From: Verrucomicrobiia bacterium
GTDB taxonomy: Bacteria; Verrucomicrobiota; Verrucomicrobiia; Limisphaerales; JAOAIM01
Assembly (NCBI GenBank): GCA_026414705.1
Contig: JAOAIM010000004.1
Span: 6,417-39,909, forward strand
DNA: 33,493 nt
Direction: 5' to 3'
Of the stretch, positions 7,834 to 33,493 are shown in pieces. Made by a program: the position numbers and the translations under genes. Under the pieces are notes generated by a model. That model saw nothing but the letters and a program-made list of their open reading frames with translations, had not been told where the DNA came from and did not search any database. Numbering within the stretch: position 1 is the first letter of the stretch; the number at the start of each line of letters is the position of its first letter.

Positions 7834-8364
7834 TCAGGTGAGGCGCTCGAGCCTTTCGGTCGTCCCCAACGCGGCCAGCAGCTCGGCCACCGTGCGGGTC
7901 TGGCCGGGCAACACCAGGTCGGGCGCGATTTCGCTCAGGGGCTGAAGCACGAAACGCCGCAGGTGCGCGCGGGGATGGGGCAGCGTCAATGCCGCCGTGC
8001 AGCGCGTTTCGTCGCCGAACGCAATGAGGTCCAAATCCAGCGGACGCGGCGCGTTTCGCGCGCCGGTGCGGACGCGACCGAATTCGCATTCCAAAGCCTG
8101 CAGTTTGAGGAGCAGGGATTCGGGGGTTTCGCCGGGACGGGGCGTGAGCGCGACGAGCGCGTTCACGAACGGCGGCGAGCCGGGCGGACAATCCACCGGC
8201 GCGGTGCGCCAGAGCGAGGAAACCCGCACCGGCGCGGCCGAGAGTTCGGCGAGTCGTTGGATGGCCGCGCGGACGTTTTGAACGGCGTCACCGAGGTTTG
8301 AACCCAGAGCCACGAAGGCAAGGCTCTCAACGCTGGAGTTCGCACTGCGGGCTTCGGCCTTCAT
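7834..8364 (-). CDS. folK: 2-amino-4-hydroxy-6-hydroxymethyldihydropteridine pyrophosphokinase FolK
   Basis: FolK (HPPK) transfers pyrophosphate from ATP to the pterin precursor in folate synthesis. The 176-residue protein has the N-terminal GSNLGD signature (21-26). The family motif RPLDLDLI (107-114), carrying the Mg-binding aspartates, and PHPRAHLRRFVLQPL (129-143) are also present. ATG 8364 overlaps the dapB stop (ATGA), which decides the start over upstream in-frame codons. It is the last gene of the long minus-strand lysine unit and ends 12 bp from the convergent transporter. Confidence 0.95.
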   Translation of the reverse strand: MKAEARSANSSVESLAFVALGSNLGDAVQNVRAAIQRLAELSAAPVRVSSLWRTAPVDCPPGSPPFVNALVALTPRPGETPESLLLKLQALECEFGRVRTGARNAPRPLDLDLIAFGDETRCTAALTLPHPRAHLRRFVLQPLSEIAPDLVLPGQTRTVAELLAALGTTERLERLT

Positions 8365-9095
8365 TTCAGCCCCAGCACGTCCTGCATGTCGTAAAGGCCG
8401 GGGGGTTGTTTGACGACCCATTCGGCGGCGCGCAGGGCGCCGTGGGCAAAGGTCTCGCGGCTGGAAGCGCGGTGCGTGAGTTCAATGCGCTCGCCGGTGG
8501 TGGCAAAGATCACCGTGTGATCGCCCACCACGTCGCCGCCGCGCACCGAGTGGATGCCGATTTCGTTGGGCTTGCGCTCGCCGGTGATGCCGTGGCGTCC
8601 GTGGCGCGCGGCCTCGTTCAGATGCAGACTGCGCACGTGCGCGAGAATTTCGGCGAGGGTTTTGGCCGTGCCGCTGGGCGCGTCGCGCTTGTGACGATGG
8701 TGCATCTCGACGATTTCCAGGTCGTAATCCGGGCCGAGGATTTCCGCGGCCCGGCGCGCGAGCCAGAAGAGCGTGTTGACGCCGGTGGAGAAGTTGGACG
8801 ACCACACGATGGGGATGTGCGCGCGGGCCTTCTTGATCTCGAAGGTCTCGGTGTCGTTGTGGCCGGTGGTGCCGATGACCAGCGCCTTGCGGCGCTGCGC
8901 GCACAGCGACGCAATCTGCGGCGTGGCGGCGTGGGAACTGAAATCCACCACCACGTCGGCGCGGTCTATCACCCCGGCGAGGTCATCGCCCTGGTCAATT
9001 TCGCCGACGATTTGAATGCCGCGATGTTGGGGCGCGCAGGCAACCAGCGCGCGGCCCATCCGGCCCTTCGCTCCGGTGATGATGACTTTGGTCAT
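8361..9095 (-). CDS. dapB: 4-hydroxy-tetrahydrodipicolinate reductase DapB
   Basis: DapB reduces the product of DapA to tetrahydrodipicolinate with NAD(P)H in diaminopimelate and lysine synthesis. The 244-residue protein has the N-terminal nucleotide-binding GAKGRMG loop (8-14) and GTTG (75-78). The active-site motif is EMHHRHKRDAPSGTA, with the catalytic His and Lys at about 132 and 136. The length is slightly below the E. coli enzyme (273) but within the family. Both ends overlap neighbours by 4 bp (ATGA): the unknown 85-residue gene upstream and folK downstream. Confidence 0.97.
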   Translation of the reverse strand: MTKVIITGAKGRMGRALVACAPQHRGIQIVGEIDQGDDLAGVIDRADVVVDFSSHAATPQIASLCAQRRKALVIGTTGHNDTETFEIKKARAHIPIVWSSNFSTGVNTLFWLARRAAEILGPDYDLEIVEMHHRHKRDAPSGTAKTLAEILAHVRSLHLNEAARHGRHGITGERKPNEIGIHSVRGGDVVGDHTVIFATTGERIELTHRASSRETFAHGALRAAEWVVKQPPGLYDMQDVLGLK

Positions 9096-9349
9096 GGACG
9101 GCTCTTTTTGAGGTAAATTCGGCAGAGCGTTTTCAAGCGGCAGTAGAAAACAGGAAACGGCAGATTGGGATAACGGGGCAACACGCGCTCCTCAAAGATT
9201 TGGACGACCCGGCTCTGGAACTCGGACTCTGCTTCTTTCGCCGCCGTGGAGCGCGGGTCGAAGGCAAACTCGAACCGGTCAAACAGTTCGGCCAGCCGGG
9301 CTACATCCTCTCTGGAAACAATCCCTTCGGGATCTCCAGTGTCTGACAT
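9092..9349 (-). CDS. Unknown 85-residue protein inside the lysine operon
   Basis: No family is recognised. The protein is acidic in its first half (SREDVARLAELFDRFEF) and basic at the C-terminus (FYCRLKTLCRIYLKKSRP), with two cysteines, and is predicted to be mostly helical without membrane segments. Its stop overlaps the dapB ATG by 4 bp. Its own ATG lies 49 bp inside the preceding gene, an unusually long overlap; I see no later in-frame ATG or GTG close to the end of that overlap. Base composition looks less GC-rich than neighbouring dap genes. Position suggests coexpression with lysine synthesis; function cannot be inferred. Confidence 0.6.
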   Translation of the reverse strand: MSDTGDPEGIVSREDVARLAELFDRFEFAFDPRSTAAKEAESEFQSRVVQIFEERVLPRYPNLPFPVFYCRLKTLCRIYLKKSRP

Positions 9350-9729
9350 GCGATTTCCTCCTGGACCCCGCGGTAACGCTGGTCAGCGGCGAGTTTGTAA
9401 TCGAGAACCAGGTCGTAAAGTTCGGCTGTGCCGCAGCGAGGGAATTTTTCCCGCAAGCCCGCCAAAACTTCCAGGGCGCTCTGACAGAATGCGCTCATCT
9501 TGCGCCAGACCTCGGCGACTTCATTCAGATTGTCGGCCTTGCGGGCCAGCGCGGCAGCCAGGCCATAGGTTTGCACCACGATGCCCTCGACCAGTCGGAC
9601 CTGCCGGCCAAACGTCTCACACGCCGCCGCCGATTCGCTGTCAGTCAACTGATTGGCAATCCGCGCCATCTCGCGGATGGGCGGCTGGTTGATTTCCAGA
9701 ATGTCGTTGAAGCTCAAACAGGTGTTCAT
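9301..9729 (-). CDS. Unknown 142-residue helical protein inside the lysine operon
   Basis: No family is recognised. The sequence is hydrophilic and predicted all-helical, with a central stretch (RQVRLVEGIVVQTYGLAAA) and a later DLVLDYKLAADQRYRG segment that look like packed amphipathic helices. It has four cysteines and no signal peptide or membrane helix. The ATG overlaps the dapA stop (ATGA). Its 3' end overlaps the next gene by 49 bp in another frame. A small helical adaptor or regulator is one possibility, but nothing in the sequence shows it. Confidence 0.65.
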   Translation of the reverse strand: MNTCLSFNDILEINQPPIREMARIANQLTDSESAAACETFGRQVRLVEGIVVQTYGLAAALARKADNLNEVAEVWRKMSAFCQSALEVLAGLREKFPRCGTAELYDLVLDYKLAADQRYRGVQEEIACQTLEIPKGLFPERM

Positions 9730-10661
9730 CGCTTCGCCGGATTATAGCCCGCTCGCGCCGAAGCGCGCAAACGTGCAGTCTCTTCTTTCAAAATCCCGCA
9801 CGCCTTCATCGTCTGCCGCAGTTTCTCGCGGTTGGCGGGGGACATCGGCACCAGCGGCAGCCGGTATTCCTCGGCAATCCAGCCGAGCATCGCCATCGCG
9901 GCCTTCACCGGAATGGGATTGGTCTCGATGAACAGGTCCTTGAAGAGCGGGTAAAACTTCGCGTGCAGCTTCATCGCCGTGGCCACGTCGCCGGACGCAA
10001 AAGCGCGCACCATGCGGGCGACCTCGCGCGGGATGACGTTGGAGGCGACGCTGATGACGCCCTGCGCGCCCACCGCCATGAAGGGGAGCGTGAGCGAATC
10101 GTCACCGCTCAGGATCGTGAACTTCGGCCCGAGCGCCGCGCGGAGTTGAGAGACGCGGTCGGCGCTGCCGCCGGCTTCCTTGATGCCGATGATGTTCCGG
10201 CATTCGCGCGCCAAGCGCACCACGGTGTCCACGGCGATTTCCACGCCGCAGCGGCCGGGGATGTTGTAGAGGATGATCGGCAGTTTCGTGGCGCGGGCGA
10301 CGGCGGCAAAGTGTTGAAACAAACCCTCCTGGGTGGGCCGGTTGTAGTAGGGCGCGACCTGGAGTGAGGCGTCGGCGCCGGCCTTTTCGGCTTCTTGGGT
10401 GAGGTAAATCGCCTCTTTGGTGGCATTGCCGCCGGTGCCGGCGATGACCTTGATTTTGCGGGCGGCGAACTTCACCGAGAGCGCCACCACGCGGACGTGC
10501 TCCTCGAAATCCACCGTGGGCGATTCGCCGGTCGTGCCCACCGGCACAATGCCGTCCACCCCGGCGCCAATCTGCATTTGGATGAGGCGGCGCAGCGCGG
10601 TCTCGTCAATTTTCCCGTCCCGGAACGGTGTGACAATGGCGGTGTAAGTGCCCGTGAACAT
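9726..10661 (-). CDS. dapA: 4-hydroxy-tetrahydrodipicolinate synthase DapA
   Basis: DapA condenses pyruvate with aspartate semialdehyde, the first step specific to lysine/diaminopimelate synthesis. The 311-residue TIM-barrel protein has the GTTGES loop (42-47), the PYYN segment with the triad-type Tyr at about 106, and YNIPGR with Tyr132. The Schiff-base lysine is Lys161 in GIKEAGG. These positions match the E. coli enzyme almost residue for residue. The last ~15 residues are a basic tail. dapF ends 57 bp upstream on the same strand and the next gene overlaps the stop by 4 bp. Confidence 0.97.
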   Translation of the reverse strand: MFTGTYTAIVTPFRDGKIDETALRRLIQMQIGAGVDGIVPVGTTGESPTVDFEEHVRVVALSVKFAARKIKVIAGTGGNATKEAIYLTQEAEKAGADASLQVAPYYNRPTQEGLFQHFAAVARATKLPIILYNIPGRCGVEIAVDTVVRLARECRNIIGIKEAGGSADRVSQLRAALGPKFTILSGDDSLTLPFMAVGAQGVISVASNVIPREVARMVRAFASGDVATAMKLHAKFYPLFKDLFIETNPIPVKAAMAMLGWIAEEYRLPLVPMSPANREKLRQTMKACGILKEETARLRASARAGYNPAKR

Positions 10662-10718: not shown

Positions 10719-11600
10719 TCAATCCGAAACGCGCACCTCGAAGGCTTCGTCGGCGATCTGGCCCTCGACAACCTTGAGGACCGGCCCGGTCATGCGGATG
10801 GCGAAGTCGTCGGCGATCTCGATTTGCAGCACGCCACCGGGCATGTGCACGGAGACGCGGCGGTCGCACCAGCCCAGCCGGTGGGCGACGGCGGCGGCGG
10901 CGCTGCTGCTGCTGCCGCTGGCGAGGGTGTAACCGGCGCCGCGCTCCCAGATTTCGATCCGAATGTTCGCGCGGTCGAGCACGTTGAGAAACTGCACATT
11001 CGTGCGCCGCGGGAACATTGGATGATTCTCCAGGTGCGGACCGAGCCGGCGGGCGAGCGCGGCGCTGACCGGTTCAAGCGGGCGCAGGCCCCCGGGCGCG
11101 GGTCGGCCCACGACAACGCAATGTGGATTGCCGATGGTGGCGGCGCAAATGACCAGCTCCTCCCCGCCGGCGCTCACGCGCTCGTTGAGGACTTCACGCC
11201 TCGGACCGGTGGCGGGAATTTCATCGCTCCAGAAACGCACCCGGCCCATGTCCACGCGCACGTTGCGGCCGCCGTCGAACACGGTGGCGCGCACGATGCC
11301 CCCGGCGGTTTCCACGGCGAACTCGTCCGTGCCAACGAGTTTTTGATCCCACAGGTAACGGCAGAAAATGCGCAGGCCGTTGCCGCTTTTTTCCGCCTCG
11401 CTGCCATCGGGATTGAAAATGCGCAGCGCAAAGCGCGCGGCCTGCGAGGGCAGCGGACCGAGCAGGATGCCGTCCGAGCCGGCGCCGTAGTTGCGGTGGC
11501 AGATGAGGCGGATTTGATCGGTCGTGAGCGGGTCGGCCAGATCGGCGGGGTTGATGACGATGTAGTCGTTGCCGAGGCCGTGATACTTGCAAAACTTCAT
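10719..11600 (-). CDS. dapF: Diaminopimelate epimerase-like protein (DapF family) with Ser in place of both catalytic Cys
   Basis: DapF interconverts LL- and meso-diaminopimelate by a two-base mechanism that uses two cysteines. The 293-residue protein has many family hallmarks: HGLGNDYIV at the N-terminus, GSDGILL (41-47), NPDGSEAE, GNGLR, IGNPHCV (157-163), RRTNVQFL and ERGAGYT. However, the residue before GNG is Ser72 where the H. influenzae enzyme has Cys73. The second site reads LASGS with Ser228 where LACGT with Cys217 is expected. Both codons are AGC. ATG 11600 begins exactly with the conserved N-terminus. Genomic context (rpoN, then dapA-dapB) supports a lysine role, but activity as an epimerase is uncertain. 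Confidence 0.85.
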   Translation of the reverse strand: MKFCKYHGLGNDYIVINPADLADPLTTDQIRLICHRNYGAGSDGILLGPLPSQAARFALRIFNPDGSEAEKSGNGLRIFCRYLWDQKLVGTDEFAVETAGGIVRATVFDGGRNVRVDMGRVRFWSDEIPATGPRREVLNERVSAGGEELVICAATIGNPHCVVVGRPAPGGLRPLEPVSAALARRLGPHLENHPMFPRRTNVQFLNVLDRANIRIEIWERGAGYTLASGSSSSAAAAVAHRLGWCDRRVSVHMPGGVLQIEIADDFAIRMTGPVLKVVEGQIADEAFEVRVSD

Positions 11601-16311: not shown

Positions 16312-17394
16312 TCAGCGCGTGGTCTCGGTTTTGGGTTTGGGCAACTCCCGGTTCAGGAGCAACCGCAATTCGCGGGTGTGGCCATCGTCGCGGGCGGAGA
16401 GGAGGATTTTTTCCTGCACGTGGGGCAGGGCACGGTTCATGGTTTCGACGAGCCATTGCTGGGTGAAAAGCGCGGGGTTGGCCTCAAAGAGCGGGCGCAG
16501 GCGCTGGAAGGTTTCGGCGTCGGAACGCACCGAGGCGATGAGGCGGCTGCGTTCGGCGCGGGCGGTTTCGAGCCGGCCGGCGGCGTCGGCTTCGGCGCGA
16601 CTGAGGGTCTGGCTGGCCTCGCTACGCGCCTCGTTGAGCAGGCGGTCGCGGTTTTGGCCGGCGGCGATGACGTTTTGAAAGGCCTGGGTGACCTGCCGGG
16701 GCGGGCGTGAGACGACGGAGCATTGTTCGACGACGATGCCGAGGTCGTGCGCGGCGATGAGTTGTTCGACGCGGCGGCGGACGGCTTCCTGAAATCCGAG
16801 CCGGTCGCGCGTGAGCAGATCGTCCACGGTGAAGCGCGCGGCGGTGGAGAGCAGCGCGTTGTCGAGGGCGCTTTGAATGGCGTTGGACGCGTTGAGAAAT
16901 CCGAACACGTAGCGGATGGGGTCCTGGATGCGGTAGCTGAGGGTGGCGCGGACGTGGACGATGTTGCCGTCGGCGGTCAGGGCGTAACTGTCCACGGCGG
17001 GGTTGAGCGAGGGCCCGGCGGGCGGTTCCTGGCCGAGGGCCTCCTGTTCGGGCGTTTGGGCGAACCAACCGACGCTCGAACGCACCTGTTGCAATTCGGT
17101 AATCGGCACGCGCACCACTTCATCAATCGGATACGGGAACGCCCAGTGGGCGCCGGCGCCAAGGAGGGCTTTTTCGCCCTCGCCCACCGGCCGACCGAAA
17201 CGCAGGAGGATGGCTTTTTCCTGCGGGCCGACGGTGAAGAAACCCGACAAAAGAAACACCGCGACCAGCACGACCATGACGATTTTGATGATCGCGAAGC
17301 TGCTGCGCAGGGCCTCGGCCAGCGCCTGCGAGCCGGCGTCCAGGCCGTCGGGGCGGCGCGGCGGCGGCGGTGCGATGAGGGTTTGCTGGCTCAT
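16312..17394 (-). CDS. hflK: SPFH/band 7 membrane protein, HflK-like
   Basis: HflK and HflC form a membrane ring that encloses and modulates the FtsH protease. This 360-residue protein has a Pro-rich N-terminal cytoplasmic segment, one membrane helix (about 34-53) and the SPFH start (VGPQEKAILLRFGRPV). A long Ala/Glu/Arg-rich helical stretch (RAEADAAGRLETARAERSR region) follows. ATG 17394 lies 4 bp after the hflC-like stop, so the two are coupled. The gene order hflC then hflK is the reverse of the usual hflKC. No ftsH gene is in the window, so assignment as HflK rests on sequence type and pairing. Confidence 0.82.
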   Translation of the reverse strand: MSQQTLIAPPPPRRPDGLDAGSQALAEALRSSFAIIKIVMVVLVAVFLLSGFFTVGPQEKAILLRFGRPVGEGEKALLGAGAHWAFPYPIDEVVRVPITELQQVRSSVGWFAQTPEQEALGQEPPAGPSLNPAVDSYALTADGNIVHVRATLSYRIQDPIRYVFGFLNASNAIQSALDNALLSTAARFTVDDLLTRDRLGFQEAVRRRVEQLIAAHDLGIVVEQCSVVSRPPRQVTQAFQNVIAAGQNRDRLLNEARSEASQTLSRAEADAAGRLETARAERSRLIASVRSDAETFQRLRPLFEANPALFTQQWLVETMNRALPHVQEKILLSARDDGHTRELRLLLNRELPKPKTETTR

Positions 17395-17398
17395 GGCT

Positions 17399-18304
17399 TC
17401 AGCGTCCGGGCGCGTTGGTCCAGAGGTTCTGGAACAGGTCAAACGGCGGGGTGCGCTGGTCGAAGATCAACGTGGTGCGTTCCTTGAGGGCGGCTTCGAG
17501 GGTTTCGAGGCGCAGGAGGAAATTGGCCAGTTCGGGATTTTGCTGGAACACGGCGAGCGTCTGAGCGGCGACGGCCTCGCCCTCGCCCCGGATGCGGCGC
17601 GCTTCGGCCTCGGCGGCGGAGAGCAACTCGGCGGCGGCGCGCTCGGCGGCGGAGCGAATGCGCGCCGCCTCGGCCTGGCCCTCGGATTCGAGCTGGTCGG
17701 CGAGCACCTTGCGTTCGGAGGTCATGCGCTCGAAGACGGTCTGCGTGACGCTTTCGGGCAGGCCGAGTTTTTTGATGCCGAGGAATTCGATGCTCAGACC
17801 GCAGTCGTTGGTTTGAAGTTGCGCGCGCACCTGGGCGAGGATTTCAGCCTCGATCTGATCAAATTTGAGCGCCGCCGGGTCGGCATTGACGAAGTCGCCG
17901 AGCGGATGGCGTCCGACGACGGCGCTTTTGGCACTGCGAAGGATGTTTTCGAGCATGCGCTCGGCAGCGGGCACCGAGCCGCCGGCGAATTTGGGAAAGA
18001 AGGTCTGCGGGTCGGTGATGCGCCAGCCGACGTAAACCATCGTGAGCAGCGGGTTGTTGTCGGCGGTGAGGTCTTCGGTGAACTTGTCCTCGAAGTTCTG
18101 GATGCGGCGGTCGAACTTGTAAACCTTTTGAATCGGCCAGGGCCATTTGAGGTAGAGGTTCGGCTCCAGAATCTGGCGGGTGGGCCGTCCGAAGGTGGTG
18201 ACGACGGCGATTTCGGTCTGGCGCACCTGGAAGGTGAAGAGCAGGAGCGCGAAGATCAGGATCAGCAACGCGCCAATCAGAACGGTGAGGACGTTTCGTT
18301 TCAT
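17399..18304 (-). CDS. hflC: SPFH/band 7 membrane protein, HflC-like
   Basis: The 301-residue protein has a single N-terminal membrane helix (about 5-25), then an SPFH domain beginning with the family pattern TEIAVVTTFGRPTR and LYLKWPWPIQKVYKFDRR. A coiled-coil stretch rich in Ala, Glu and Arg (about 205-255) follows. The IEFLGIKKLGLPESVTQ segment is typical of HflC proteins. Its ATG overlaps the stop of the large SPFH gene by 4 bp and its stop lies 4 bp before the hflK-like start, so three SPFH genes are translated in series. The role is inferred as part of a membrane ring of SPFH subunits. Confidence 0.85.
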   Translation of the reverse strand: MKRNVLTVLIGALLILIFALLLFTFQVRQTEIAVVTTFGRPTRQILEPNLYLKWPWPIQKVYKFDRRIQNFEDKFTEDLTADNNPLLTMVYVGWRITDPQTFFPKFAGGSVPAAERMLENILRSAKSAVVGRHPLGDFVNADPAALKFDQIEAEILAQVRAQLQTNDCGLSIEFLGIKKLGLPESVTQTVFERMTSERKVLADQLESEGQAEAARIRSAAERAAAELLSAAEAEARRIRGEGEAVAAQTLAVFQQNPELANFLLRLETLEAALKERTTLIFDQRTPPFDLFQNLWTNAPGR

Positions 18305-20193
18305 GGCTTGGTGGGCGGCTTCACGGCCGCGGAGATGCGTTGGAAATATTCCTCGTCGAGCCGCTGTTGGAGGTCGTAGGTGATGACGTCCTGGGTGTTG
18401 GTGGTGAGCAGGATGTATTTGCGGGCCGGGGCCGTGGCGGCGGCAAACATCTGCGCGTAGGCCCGCTGCTGATACACCGAGGGGGCGGCGCGGAAGGCCG
18501 GCAGTTGATTGGTGAAGGCGGCGGCGCGGGCCAGCGCGGTTTGCTCCAACTGCAACCGGTCGGCCTCGGCGCGATTGGTCAGCGCGAAACTCTGCGCGGC
18601 GGCGAGCGTGTTGGTGCGGATTTCATGGGCGCGGGCTTCGAGGATTTTGGCCTCCTTTTTGTGCCGGGCGCCGACGACCTTTTCGTATTCGGGCGCGACC
18701 TTGACCGGCGGATGGATGCCCTGCAGACCGACGAAGAGGATTTCGACGCCGAGTTGGAACTGGTCGGCGGCGCGCTGGATGCGCTGGCGCAACGCCCGGG
18801 CCGCCTCCAGCCGCGCGCGCGACATGATCTCGTTGAGGTCGGCGCTGACCAGGTAACGAACGATCTCGCGCGTGGCCACCTGCTGAAGCAGCGCGTTGGC
18901 GTCCTCGTGGCGATAGGCCCAGTCGCGCAGAGAACGGATGCGATATTGAACGGGGATGTTGACGGTGACGAGGCTCACGGGGGGCACTTTGCGCCCGGTC
19001 GGCTCGGGGGTCTCGGCGCGGGGCGTCTCGCGGTTGGCGACGATGAAGTTGTCCTCTTTGCCGTGCGGGATGGTCCAGACGACCGTGCGTTCCTCGGCGT
19101 GTTCCTTGTGCTCCTCCGGCTCGAAACCGATGTGCAGGGTGTGGATTTCAGCGGTGCGGACGCGGTGCACGCGGTCCAACGGCCAGGGCCATTTGAGGTG
19201 CAGGCCCGGTTCGAGCACCTCGCGTCCCGGCACGGGCCGACCGAAGCGTTCGAGCAACGCCTGTTCGCCCGGTTCAATGACGACGAAGCAGGTCGCGAGC
19301 AGCAGCACCCCCAGTTGCAGGAGCAGCAACCAGCCGAGCGCGCGCTCGAAGAAGCGGTAAAACCAGGTTTCCGAAACCTTGAAGCCGAACTGGTAATCGA
19401 GCGCCTGGGCGGCGGTGGTCACGAGCGTTTCGGGTTGCGCGAGCACGCCCACGACGCGGTTTTCATAGAGCGGGCGGGCGACCTGACCCTTGACGCGCGG
19501 GCGGTAGATTTCCAGCACCAGATTCAGGAGCGTCTCGAGCGCCAGCAGCCCCAACAACACGCACAGGCCGCGCGCCAGATACAGATCGGCGCGCGGAAAT
19601 TCCGTACGCACAGCGGCGATCCCCAGCGCCGTCAGCAAACACAAATACGCGCCCAGCAGCAGCCAGTTCGCGCCCGGGCGCAACAGGCGATGGTCTTCCA
19701 GCCGGGCGAGCGTGGCCGAGAAGCGGCCCAACAGGAACAGCACCAGGGCGAACAGGCCAAAGAGCGAAAGCGCCAGCAGTTCCTGGCGCATCGGCGGTGG
19801 GGCGGGCAGCCCGGCCAGCTCGCGCCAGGCCAGCACCGCGCCGCCACCCTGGAGCACCAACAGCAGGATCGAGAAAATCGGCACGAACCACTTTTCAAAC
19901 TGCTGTCGCGCGCGGGCGGCGGGGAACAGTTCCACCTCGGTGGTCTCGAACAAGGCGGCGCTGCCCTTGGCCCGGGCCATTTCCTCGAGTTCGATGCGCT
20001 CGAGTCGTTCGTTGGTTTCGAGTCGCATCTGAAACCAGCTCACCAGGGCCACCAGCGTGCCCACGCCCAAGAACAGCGCGGTGACCTGTCCGGCCAGCGA
20101 GCCGTCGTGGCGCGCCACGGCGAAACCCGCCGCCGCCACCGCCAGCAGCGCCAGCAGGTTCAGCAGCCCGGTGCGTTGGATGTTGCGGTCCAT
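18301..20193 (-). CDS. Large SPFH protein with a multi-helix N-terminal membrane domain
   Basis: The 630-residue protein is about twice the length of HflK or HflC. Six hydrophobic helices (about 8-27, 36-53, 103-123, 137-157, 174-195, 206-228) precede a seventh (about 286-305) that leads into the SPFH domain (PGEQALLERFGRPV, then LHLKWPWPLDRVHRV). A charged His/Glu insertion (EPEEHKEHAEE, about 358-368) sits in the SPFH region, and a coiled coil (about 530-570) precedes the C-terminus. Thus a polytopic domain of unknown kind is fused to an HflK-like module. Start ATG 20193; the stop overlaps the hflC-like ATG. Function probably involves membrane organisation or protease control with its two SPFH neighbours. 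Confidence 0.82.
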   Translation of the reverse strand: MDRNIQRTGLLNLLALLAVAAAGFAVARHDGSLAGQVTALFLGVGTLVALVSWFQMRLETNERLERIELEEMARAKGSAALFETTEVELFPAARARQQFEKWFVPIFSILLLVLQGGGAVLAWRELAGLPAPPPMRQELLALSLFGLFALVLFLLGRFSATLARLEDHRLLRPGANWLLLGAYLCLLTALGIAAVRTEFPRADLYLARGLCVLLGLLALETLLNLVLEIYRPRVKGQVARPLYENRVVGVLAQPETLVTTAAQALDYQFGFKVSETWFYRFFERALGWLLLLQLGVLLLATCFVVIEPGEQALLERFGRPVPGREVLEPGLHLKWPWPLDRVHRVRTAEIHTLHIGFEPEEHKEHAEERTVVWTIPHGKEDNFIVANRETPRAETPEPTGRKVPPVSLVTVNIPVQYRIRSLRDWAYRHEDANALLQQVATREIVRYLVSADLNEIMSRARLEAARALRQRIQRAADQFQLGVEILFVGLQGIHPPVKVAPEYEKVVGARHKKEAKILEARAHEIRTNTLAAAQSFALTNRAEADRLQLEQTALARAAAFTNQLPAFRAAPSVYQQRAYAQMFAAATAPARKYILLTTNTQDVITYDLQQRLDEEYFQRISAAVKPPTKP

Positions 20194-29918: not shown

Positions 29919-32900
29919 CTATTTAAGCAGGGTAATGTGCCCCTTGAACTCCTTCGGTTTGGTGGTGGTGGGTTTCGGGGGCGGTTTCGGCGGGTTGTTG
30001 TTCTGGCGCAGGAGCAGGCCGAAGTTGTCGCCGGCTTCGCCTTCATCCAGGAGCCTCCCGCCGCCGGACATCCGCATGGGGGTGACGAGCATTTGCTTCA
30101 AGTGACTGATAACATTGTGCGCGGTGCGCCCTCGAACGCTGTCGGAGGGAGGGGCGTTGTCGGGTTGTTGAAGCCCAAGGATCACCCGCCCGCCAAACGT
30201 CGCGCCCGAGGTTTGCCGGCCGGCGCTGACGTTCATCATGATGCGGTTGGGCATGCCGCCCTCAATCTTCATTCCGGTCAGCGGCGCGGCGTTCAACGGA
30301 TCGAAATCCTCCGGGAGGTCGCAGTCGCCGACGGCCACAGCTTCGTGGAGGCCGAGGGTGGCGTTCCAATACGCGCCGCGATAGAGCCAGTCCAGGCCGG
30401 CGGGCGAGGCGCTGACCGGCTGGCCACCGCCGTCCAGGAGCGGATTGCCGTTGGGGTCAAGGAAGCGCGGCTGGCCGGAGTCGTCGTAGTCGTAGCGCTC
30501 GATGACGTTGCCGGCGGCGTCGGTGAGGGCCAAGGCGTTGCCGAGTTCGTCGCAGAGGACGTGACGGACCTGGCCGGACGCGGAAACCTCGGCCCTGACG
30601 GCGACAGGGAGGGTCTTTCTGATTTCCCTGCCTCTGCCGACGACATGAGTGCGATGGAGCGCGCCGTCGCGCCATTCCTCGACCACGGTGTGGTCATCGG
30701 GGTGGTAGATGTAGGTGGTGGTCTGGGGCGCCAGCGGCGTGGGGGGATGGAAGGTGCGGCTGAGGCGGCGGCCGAGGGCGTCGTAGGTGTAGGTGAAGAG
30801 GGTTTCGGGCACGCCGCCGGTGAGGCGTTCAACCTGCACGAGGCGATCGGCATAGTCGTAAGTGAAGAGGAAATCGCCCTGTGCGATTTGCGCGGCGTTG
30901 CGGTTGCCGTTGGGGTCGTAGAGGTATTCGCCGAAGGGCGAGGTGGTGTACTGGTTCATTTGGAAGTCGGCGGGTTCGGGCAGGGTCGGGTCGAGGGTGT
31001 ACGGTTGCGCCACGCCGTTTTCGGTGACGATCTGGCGGTTGCCGTTGGGGTCGAGTTGATAGGTGCGGGTGGTTTCCCAAACGTTGCCGCGGAACGTGTC
31101 GCTCTGCACGAGGCGATCCAACGCGTCGGCAACCCAGAGGTTGGTTTGCAACGGGCCGCCCGGGGTGAAGGGCGCGACCTGGGCGCGGCGGGTTTTGTTC
31201 TGGCTGCGGTCGTAGGCGTAGGCGCGCTGGTCAATGATGGTGCCGCCGCCGGCGAACTGGTGGTTGACGCGGACGACCTGTTGCCAGCCAAAGTCGCCGG
31301 GTGCATTGGGCGGGGTGAGCGTGCCGTTCCAATGGAGGCGCGTGTGGATGCCGTTGGGCCGGGCGATGCGGCCCAGGCGGTCGGGACCTTCGTAGGCGAG
31401 GGTGGCGAGGGTGGTCGGCGCGCCGCCGGCCTGGAAGGTGAGCGCGGTGGGCCGGTCCAGGGCGTCGTAGCTGGCGCCCAACACGCGGCCGGAGGGCAGC
31501 GTCAGCGAGAGCGAATTGCCCAGGGAATCGGACAGCTGGCTGAGGGCGAAACCGTCCTGTGTGGCGGCGCGGCAGTTGCCGAGCGAGTCCCAGGTGAAGG
31601 TGCAACGGGAGAGGTTGTTGCTGGCGCGCATCAGGAAGCTGCGCCCGTCCCAGACGAAGGTTTCGAAGGTGGTGGTGGGCGCGACGGTCGGGCCGGGGAA
31701 GATGTCGCGGCGAATGACGCGGTTGAGGGCGTCCACGGTGTTGGAGACGACCGTGCCGTTGGCGTCACGCACCCACCGGAGCGCGCCCGAGCCGTCGAAG
31801 AAGACGGTGTGAACGGTCAAGTCGGCGTTGGTGACGGCGACGCAGCGATCGAGCGAGTCGTAGGCGTAGCGGGTGACGTTGCTGTTGCCGTCGGTGAAGG
31901 CGACGAGGCGGGTGTCCTGGTAATCGCACCGAGCGGAGGCGATGAGCGTGCCGCCGCAGGGGCCGGCGAAGTGGCGCGCGGTCAGCAGCCGGCTCAGGCC
32001 GTCGTATTCGTAGCAGGAATCGTTGCCGCGCGGGTCGGTGACGCGGACGACGTTGTCGAGGGAGTCGTAGGCGAATTGCAGCGCGTTGCCAAGGTTGTCG
32101 GTTTCACTGATGAGCCGGTCGCACGGGTCGTAGGAGGCGTTGAGCAGGAAGACCTGCTCCGGCCCGCCGAGGTCGGAGCGGTCCACCTGACGGACCTGGG
32201 TGACGTTGCCGTTAGCGTCGTAGCTGAATTCGATTCGGTTGGTGGCGGGGTCGGTGATGGCGGTCAGCCGCCCGGCAGTGTCGTAGGTGTAGCGGATGGT
32301 GCGCCCCAGATCGTCAGTTTCGCTGATGAGCTGGCCGTTGGGCGCGTAAGTGAAGGTGTGCGTGGATTCGCCGTCGCTGATGGGCAGGCCGGTGAAGATG
32401 TCGAAGAAGCTATCGCGCTGTCGGACGCAGCGGTTGAGGGCGTCGTATTCCCAGCGGGTTTCGGCGAGGCGGATGTTGTTGGCGCTGCCGGGCACGTCGT
32501 TGGTTTCGCCGAAGAAACGGGCGCGGATGAGGTTGTCGTTGCGATCGTAGGTGAAGAACCAGACGCTGCCCATGAAGTTGGTATGGGAGGCGGGCAATTG
32601 GCGGTGCCTGTTGGAAATGTTTTCCACTTCGACCTTGCCGTTTTCGATGCGCAGGATTTTGCCGCGCTTTTTGTCGTAGGCGAAAGTGTTGGTGCAGCCG
32701 ACGCTGGTGCCCGGGGCTTCAACGAGGGTGTGGAGCAGACCGCGCTCGTCGTAGGTGAGGAGGGTTTGTTGATTTGGGTCTTCGCCGCTGACGGCGCGCG
32801 GGCCTTCGATGCGGGCGAGGTTGTCATTGGCATCCCAGGAGAGGCGGTTGGTCAGGAAAGTGGTGCCCGAGAAGGTGGAGTGGGCGATTTCATCGCATAT

Positions 32901-33493
32901 TAGAACGGGCCGGTCGAGGGCATCGAACGTGGCGAAGCTCGTCCACCACGGATTGGTGGGGTGGAGCGCGCCGGTGGCGTCGCGATTTTCGCGGTCCACC
33001 TGAACGAGGTTGTCGTTGGCGTCGTAAAAGAGTCGTGTGGTGATGCGCTGGCCGCCGCCGGCGGGCGGGGATTGCGCCTGAACCAACTGATCGAGCGCGT
33101 TGTAGGTCCAGAGGATGTCATGGCCGCGCGGGGTGATGCAGCGGGTGAGGTTGCCGCGGGCGTCGTATTCGAAGGTGGAGGTGAGGTTGAGACCGCCGTT
33201 GTCGTAACGCGCGGTGGCGAGGTAACCGGCCATCGGGCCGTTGGTGTAATAGCTGAAGGCGTCCTGACGGCGGCGGCCCTCGGCGTCGGCGGGCTGGATG
33301 CAGCGGATGAGACGACCGCGGCTGTCGTAATCGCAATCGAACTGGGTGATGCCGCTGGTGGGATCGGCGCAGCGGACCTGGGTGAGGTTGCCGCGCGCGT
33401 CGTAGGTGGCGGCGGTGACGATGCCGCGCGGGTCGGTGACCCGAGTGACGCGGAAACCGCCTTCGGGGTTCTTGGTCTTGATGGCGTGGTCGG
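29919..33493 (-). CDS. RHS/YD-repeat protein (N-terminal part outside window)
   Basis: The frame is open from the right edge to the TAG at 29919-29921, giving about 1190 residues; the first ATG inside (33233) is only internal. Dozens of YD repeats of the form YDxxGNLxxV form a beta-shell typical of RHS and teneurin-like proteins. Near the C-terminus the RHS-core end is recognisable but divergent: GLDWLYRGAYWNATLGLHEAV replaces the usual YRGRYYDPxTGLY pattern, followed by DPLNAAPLTGMKIEGG. A tail of about 120 residues then ends in a Pro/Lys/Thr-rich stretch. No toxin family is recognised in the tail and no downstream immunity gene is seen. It is likely a large secreted or surface protein. Confidence 0.9.
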   Translation of the reverse strand, partial: DHAIKTKNPEGGFRVTRVTDPRGIVTAATYDARGNLTQVRCADPTSGITQFDCDYDSRGRLIRCIQPADAEGRRRQDAFSYYTNGPMAGYLATARYDNGGLNLTSTFEYDARGNLTRCITPRGHDILWTYNALDQLVQAQSPPAGGGQRITTRLFYDANDNLVQVDRENRDATGALHPTNPWWTSFATFDALDRPVLICDEIAHSTFSGTTFLTNRLSWDANDNLARIEGPRAVSGEDPNQQTLLTYDERGLLHTLVEAPGTSVGCTNTFAYDKKRGKILRIENGKVEVENISNRHRQLPASHTNFMGSVWFFTYDRNDNLIRARFFGETNDVPGSANNIRLAETRWEYDALNRCVRQRDSFFDIFTGLPISDGESTHTFTYAPNGQLISETDDLGRTIRYTYDTAGRLTAITDPATNRIEFSYDANGNVTQVRQVDRSDLGGPEQVFLLNASYDPCDRLISETDNLGNALQFAYDSLDNVVRVTDPRGNDSCYEYDGLSRLLTARHFAGPCGGTLIASARCDYQDTRLVAFTDGNSNVTRYAYDSLDRCVAVTNADLTVHTVFFDGSGALRWVRDANGTVVSNTVDALNRVIRRDIFPGPTVAPTTTFETFVWDGRSFLMRASNNLSRCTFTWDSLGNCRAATQDGFALSQLSDSLGNSLSLTLPSGRVLGASYDALDRPTALTFQAGGAPTTLATLAYEGPDRLGRIARPNGIHTRLHWNGTLTPPNAPGDFGWQQVVRVNHQFAGGGTIIDQRAYAYDRSQNKTRRAQVAPFTPGGPLQTNLWVADALDRLVQSDTFRGNVWETTRTYQLDPNGNRQIVTENGVAQPYTLDPTLPEPADFQMNQYTTSPFGEYLYDPNGNRNAAQIAQGDFLFTYDYADRLVQVERLTGGVPETLFTYTYDALGRRLSRTFHPPTPLAPQTTTYIYHPDDHTVVEEWRDGALHRTHVVGRGREIRKTLPVAVRAEVSASGQVRHVLCDELGNALALTDAAGNVIERYDYDDSGQPRFLDPNGNPLLDGGGQPVSASPAGLDWLYRGAYWNATLGLHEAVAVGDCDLPEDFDPLNAAPLTGMKIEGGMPNRIMMNVSAGRQTSGATFGGRVILGLQQPDNAPPSDSVRGRTAHNVISHLKQMLVTPMRMSGGGRLLDEGEAGDNFGLLLRQNNNPPKPPPKPTTTKPKEFKGHITLLK

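Follow-up and report, generated by a model that had tools for sequence, protein, structure and literature searches.

Does a member of the DapF family that carries serine in place of both catalytic cysteines still interconvert the stereoisomers of DAP, or has it taken up another role? The question is raised by a gene in the window, i.e., the whole stretch of 33,493 nucleotides analysed here, whose predicted product reads NPDGSEAEKS72GNGLR and ERGAGYTLAS228GSSSSAAAA where solved relatives read CGNG and LACGT. An earlier note on this DNA had pointed to serine at both catalytic positions, each encoded by AGC, and the sequence and the alignment agree on both points (Table 1).

Table 1. Positions in the window of the dapF gene, its key codons and the neighbouring genes; residue counts refer to distinct alignment rows with serine (Ser/Ser) or cysteine (Cys/Cys) at both catalytic positions.
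Feature	Positions	Strand	Evidence or remark
dapF, Ser/Ser type, 293 aa	10719..11600	-	ORF call, Pfam/NCBIfam profiles, model, structural alignment; start codon ATG at 11600, stop codon at 10719-10721
Lys71 codon	11388..11390	-	invariant in Ser/Ser type (118/118); Met in 60/61 Cys/Cys rows
Ser72 codon, AGC	11385..11387	-	replaces N-terminal catalytic Cys (Cys73 of H. influenzae DapF)
Tyr224 codon	10929..10931	-	invariant in Ser/Ser type (118/118); Glu/Ile/Val/Asn in Cys/Cys rows
Ser228 codon, AGC	10917..10919	-	replaces C-terminal catalytic Cys (Cys217 of H. influenzae DapF)
dapA	9726..10661	-	TIGR00674, 375.8 bits; next gene downstream of dapF
142-aa ORF between dapA and dapB	9301..9729	-	ORF list, profile searches; no Pfam/NCBIfam family
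85-aa ORF between dapA and dapB	9092..9349	-	ORF list, profile searches; no Pfam/NCBIfam family
dapB	8361..9095	-	TIGR00036, 254.8 bits
folK	7834..8421	-	TIGR01498; end of the run

By profile, fold and substrate site, the window protein is a full-length member of the DapF family. It scores 232.2 bits against the NCBIfam DapF profile TIGR00652 (cut-off 114.65, E 7.3e-69, residues 1-283) and 189.7 bits against PF01678 (cut-off 34.7, E 2e-56), which was the sole Pfam family returned at the 0.001 limit; the cut-off of NF038284, describing the bifunctional DapF/glutamate racemase, was missed (68 vs 350). An AlphaFold2 model built from a 73-sequence input (mean pLDDT 96.4) matches solved DapF over the whole length with a best Z of 36.2, and Z lies between 33 and 36 for most solved DapF structures, the C73S and C217S mutants among them, at roughly 30-40% identity (nearest about 40%). 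Proline racemase, hydroxyproline epimerase and t3LHypD share the fold at Z of about 23-27 and 11-18% identity. Within the model, helices 73-85 and 229-241 begin right behind Ser72 and Ser228, and in Anabaena DapF the catalytic cysteines are described at helix N-termini (PMC12039745, available text). What the protein misses is the Cys-Cys feature that defines the chemistry of the family: the PROSITE signature PDOC01029, in the form printed in PMC8225329 and compared by eye, fails in the window protein at the Cys only.

The Ser/Ser type was found to be a large, strictly conserved branch and not a local oddity. The GTDB species set was searched with a profile made from 15 related sequences, the window protein among them; 557 matches were confirmed, and the 80 top-ranking ones that were kept all carry serine at both positions; these 80 belong mostly to Verrucomicrobiota but also to Planctomycetota, Cyanobacteriota, Desulfobacterota, "Deltaproteobacteria", Armatimonadota and others, with the reservation that many of the sources are metagenome bins whose phylum labels may be wrong. 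After identical sequences had been removed and the remainder typed by alignment column, a first set held 93 Ser/Ser and 46 Cys/Cys rows. The addition of 40 picked phylum regions brought this to 179 distinct rows, comprising 118 Ser/Ser rows that reach down to 49% identity and 61 Cys/Cys rows, the latter not being a full sample of DapF since they come mainly from the order of JAOAIM01, its phylum and the same cyanobacteria. No row was mixed in either set, and thus no Ser/Cys intermediate was found among the 179. In trees of 139 and of 179 rows, built by a quick method with no bootstrap, the Ser/Ser rows form one side of a single branch (support 100). Among the matches listed for Verrucomicrobiota, a hand count placed the Ser/Ser type in 56 of 288 genomes, at an identity of at least 53% with a gap below that down to 41%. 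No plasmid-borne relative of this type was found, all 117 plasmid records falling under 60% identity.

The earlier note had argued against a single-base misread at one site, and the occurrence of serine at both sites in all 118 distinct aligned rows of this type speaks against chance as well as sequencing error. Codon usage adds to this: at codon 72, AGY is used by 84 of these rows and TCN by 34, whereas the split at codon 228 is 36 AGY to 82 TCN. Because both codon families are used, and a switch between AGY and TCN needs two base changes, serine itself appears to be selected.

The two serines belong to a wider set of residues particular to the branch. In addition to Lys71 and Tyr224, Ser231, Pro64 and Ile78 are each shared by all 118 Ser/Ser rows, and Glu216 by 117 of them; at positions 71, 224, 231, 64, 78 and 216, the usual residues of the 61 canonical rows sampled are Met, Glu, Gly, Ser/Ala, Cys and Arg, with position 231 being Gly. 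The substrate site was kept alongside these changes. The residues that bind DAP in H. influenzae DapF are given as N11, N64, G74/N75, N157, N190, E208, R209, G218 and S/T219 (PMC8225329, available text), and their counterparts N11, N63, G73, N74, N158, N201, E219, R220 and G229 are present in all 118 Ser/Ser rows, with S/T at 230. Gln44, which was left out of this comparison, is reported to vary already among canonical DapF (PMC12039745). A relocated catalytic cysteine was considered and rejected: Cys34, Cys152 and Cys161 are more than 90% conserved in the Ser/Ser rows but lie off the catalytic positions, and Cys34 usually, and Cys161 in a minority, also occur in the Cys/Cys rows, where position 152 is mostly His or Thr.

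The genome from which the window originates (3.94 Mb, 390 contigs, 89.95% complete) holds the window dapF as its only PF01678 gene, together with DapL and a LysA above the curated cut-off. The canonical Cys-Cys DapF whose presence elsewhere in this genome the earlier note had named as counter-evidence was searched for and was not found. Neither a second DapF nor a DAP dehydrogenase was found in the source genome, about 10% of which is missing from the assembly, or in the other 16 Ser/Ser genomes of its order, although these searches were homology-based and a non-homologous epimerase would escape them. The earlier proposal that lysine synthesis must rely on a second epimerase or on a bypass was therefore not borne out here. 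Across 58 genomes of the order, 17 carry the Ser/Ser type, 36 a distant type and 5 none, and no genome carries both; 34 of the 36 distant-type genes, read over their whole length, are Cys/Cys, the two partial ones having Cys where they could be read. Two of these 17 Ser/Ser genomes (G026 and G054, each about 80% complete) have no LysA above the curated cut-off, and the same holds for 4 of the 11 genomes of a second test. No clear link was seen with DapL, which within the order is above its cut-off in 12 of 17 Ser/Ser vs 4 of 7 Cys/Cys genomes, or with MurE loss (MurE above cut-off in 7 of 17 vs 4 of 7). MurE above cut-off is absent from the source genome, from 9 of the 16 remaining Ser/Ser genomes and from 3 of the 7 Cys/Cys genomes, so that its loss is not tied to the Ser/Ser type. 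The cell-division and cell-wall cluster of the source genome (L253; G000:C278, 8262-15371) begins with an rsmH/penicillin-binding-protein region and continues to murF and mraY, no murE being seen between them, and the cluster of a second genome (L254; G041:C55, 8552-15451) has the same layout, with no murE seen before murF and mraY.

Ten near-finished genomes of one or two contigs, including Lacunisphaera limnophila IG16b and Opitutus terrae PB90-1, each have a single PF01678 gene, which is of the Ser/Ser type. DAP dehydrogenase above cut-off is absent from 8 of these ten, L. limnophila included. It was detected in O. terrae (G187) and in G106, i.e., in 2 of the 13 genomes of that test and 2 of the 44 Ser/Ser genomes tested overall, and a bypass is therefore real elsewhere. 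In PMC5303756, the L. limnophila DapF is listed as an ordinary DapF, and GC/MS detected DAP in L. limnophila IG16b and O. terrae. By TLC, the same study detected no DL-DAP in its Lacunisphaera strains, a negative that its authors ascribe to the sensitivity of the test (PMC5303756), and the isomer is accordingly unproven.

Second copies do occur, with a canonical DapF standing beside the Ser/Ser gene in 7 of 7 cyanobacteria (Nostoc, Westiellopsis and relatives; L053, L064, L066, L067, L084, L085 and L091) and in 4 of 24 other genomes examined. A shared cyanobacterial neighbourhood that would name another substrate was sought and not found; Uma2, methyltransferase, MnhB, LeuA and lytic transglycosylase genes vary around these loci. 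Further DapF-like genes accompany the Ser/Ser type in 4 of 20 genomes, and the two that were read (L237 and L242) are Cys/Cys. Divergent DapF-like genes scoring about 55-60 bits per half were noted in genomes of the phylum that also carry the Ser/Ser type (G200:C156, G303:C169, G332:C271 and G363:C342).

In the window, the gene heads a minus-strand run in the order dapF-dapA-orf-orf-dapB-folK, with rpoN upstream. A relative of the 142-aa ORF (65% identity) occupies the same place in locus L005. Adjacency of dapF and dapA was seen in 11 of 96 Ser/Ser loci, one of which (L107) has a different gene order; in the remaining 85, many with short flanks, dapA and dapB were not seen beside the Ser/Ser gene, which counts against a role in DAP epimerisation. 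One "Deltaproteobacteria" bin (L071:4883-5965) has a Ser/Ser dapF directly behind a gene resembling Glu/Trp dehydrogenases. Elsewhere on the minus strand, the window contains three Band_7/SPFH-domain genes in a row (16312-20193) and an RHS-repeat protein of 1104 aa (29919-33233).

A working epimerase is favoured by four features combined: the location of Ser72 and Ser228 in the sequence slot of the cysteines before the two helices, the kept pocket, the linkage to dapA and dapB, and the status of the gene as sole DapF in genomes with LysA. The Ser/Ser protein is therefore read as a DAP epimerase (LL-DAP to meso-DAP) belonging to a separate, thiol-free branch of DapF, with a probability of about 0.7. 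It is also reasonably probable that the branch represents a widespread natural class of cofactor-independent epimerases without a catalytic thiol, working through serine hydroxyls and/or a new Lys/Tyr pair, and that many Verrucomicrobiota, along with some bacteria of other phyla, have it as a one-for-one substitute for classical DapF. Of the two proposals in the earlier note, another mechanism or another role, the mechanism is favoured by the dap operon linkage, the retained DAP-binding residues and the position of the gene as sole DapF where one is needed; that Ser/Ser is a whole clade lay beyond the reach of that note.

We infer the serine chemistry of the branch as follows. The hydroxyls of Ser72 and Ser228, at the helix N-termini, would flank the alpha carbon, one on each face, and serve as acid and base. 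Two invariant residues, Tyr224 and Lys71, the latter adjacent to Ser72 in the substrate-curving loop, would lower the cost of deprotonation or may themselves act as bases, so that the proton may be taken by Ser, Lys or Tyr. Single Cys-to-Ser mutants of the fold are described as nearly inactive: PddB keeps less than 0.1% activity, a loss also reported for the DapF of M. tuberculosis (PMC8225329), and the activity of HisR was greatly reduced (PMC11602996). Since such engineered enzymes are nearly inactive, and the natural variants described in PMC8142540 replace one Cys only, the Ser/Ser branch, if an epimerase, must compensate for the missing thiols. Its invariant Lys71 and Tyr224 are the obvious candidates. 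No description of a natural Ser/Ser DapF was found in the openly licensed literature, which does not prove that none exists, and no assay of one was found there.

A variant of this scheme, somewhat unlikely in our estimate, makes Lys71 and Tyr224 the two catalytic bases for the same job, with the serines only helping to hold the substrate. As a sub-case of the thiol-free epimerase, it shares part of the confidence placed in that reading. Lys71 and Tyr224 are invariant in the 118 Ser/Ser rows and absent from the 61 Cys/Cys rows, the position of Lys71 falls in the substrate-curving loop of Anabaena DapF, an enzyme with no basic residue near its cysteines (PMC12039745), and alanine racemase uses a Lys-39/Tyr-265 pair (PMC8142540). 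However, both serines are equally invariant, and in Anabaena DapF the Met that takes the place of Lys71 is not directly hydrogen-bonded to the inhibitor (PMC12039745).

The main rival to a DAP epimerase, judged unlikely, is a changed reaction or substrate (e.g., elimination), with DAP being epimerised by an unrelated enzyme. Cys-to-Thr turns the human trans-3-hydroxyproline enzyme into a dehydratase (PMC8142540), and the canonical copy kept by the cyanobacteria, where the surroundings of the Ser/Ser gene are varied, leaves room for another role in those genomes. This sits poorly with the DAP-binding residues kept throughout the Ser/Ser rows, with dapA and dapB adjoining the gene in the window and in some relatives, and with the one-for-one swap with canonical DapF within the order. 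A pseudoenzyme with a non-catalytic role, for example a partner role such as that of E. coli DapF with RppH, would show the loss of both thiols expected of a dead enzyme, and RppH-DapF complexes (6d13 and 6vck) are among the structural matches. The strong constraint on the pocket residues and on the new invariant set round the active site, along with the many genomes that have no other DapF, makes this very improbable. Equally improbable is a pathway that dispenses with the epimerase, in which LL-DAP is used directly by LysA and by the ligase of the cell wall and the protein does something else or little: the TLC result and the missing MurE would suit it, but LysA, which ordinarily acts on meso-DAP, is above the curated cut-off in the source genome and most Ser/Ser genomes tested, and MurE is missing from Cys/Cys genomes as well.

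A thiolate-thiol pair is the textbook route by which a cofactor-free protein deprotonates a carbon whose pKa is near 29. A natural, cross-phylum branch in which the substrate site is retained but both thiols are gone therefore offers a direct way to ask if thiols are required and which groups could substitute for them. The branch would also matter for annotation, because TIGR00652 labels these proteins DapF without warning, and for DapF as a drug target, because the known aziridine inhibitors attack the cysteines.

Compared with canonical DapF (TIGR00652, PF01678; H. influenzae, E. coli, Anabaena and Arabidopsis), the Ser/Ser branch shows whole-length homology, the same two-domain fold, the same DAP-binding residues and dap neighbours, and differs in having Ser for both catalytic Cys, its own invariant set and a separate branch of the tree. 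Serine at a catalytic Cys in the same fold is known from the engineered C73S and C217S DapF (2q9h and 2q9j), C67S/C209S HisR, C72S CntK and C101S/C233S PddB; these mutants alter one Cys at a time in a thiol-built scaffold, with little activity left in PddB and HisR (PMC8225329, PMC11602996), whereas the window protein is a natural Ser/Ser form with co-changed residues. A hydroxyl residue in place of a catalytic Cys is likewise found in the aspartate/glutamate racemases EcL-DER and MMP0739 (Cys/Thr) and in human trans-3-hydroxyproline dehydratase (Cys/Thr), but in the available account these Cys/Thr variants change one position only and lead to a one-way reaction or an elimination (PMC8142540), while the window protein changes both. 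O-ureidoserine racemase (7vdy), a close structural match with a Z of 35.9, acts on another substrate and is described with cysteine bases (PMC8142540). Finally, the Chlamydia bifunctional DapF/glutamate racemase (NF038284) is likewise a PVC-superphylum DapF, one with extra duties, and unlike the window protein it keeps both cysteines (PMC5885031).
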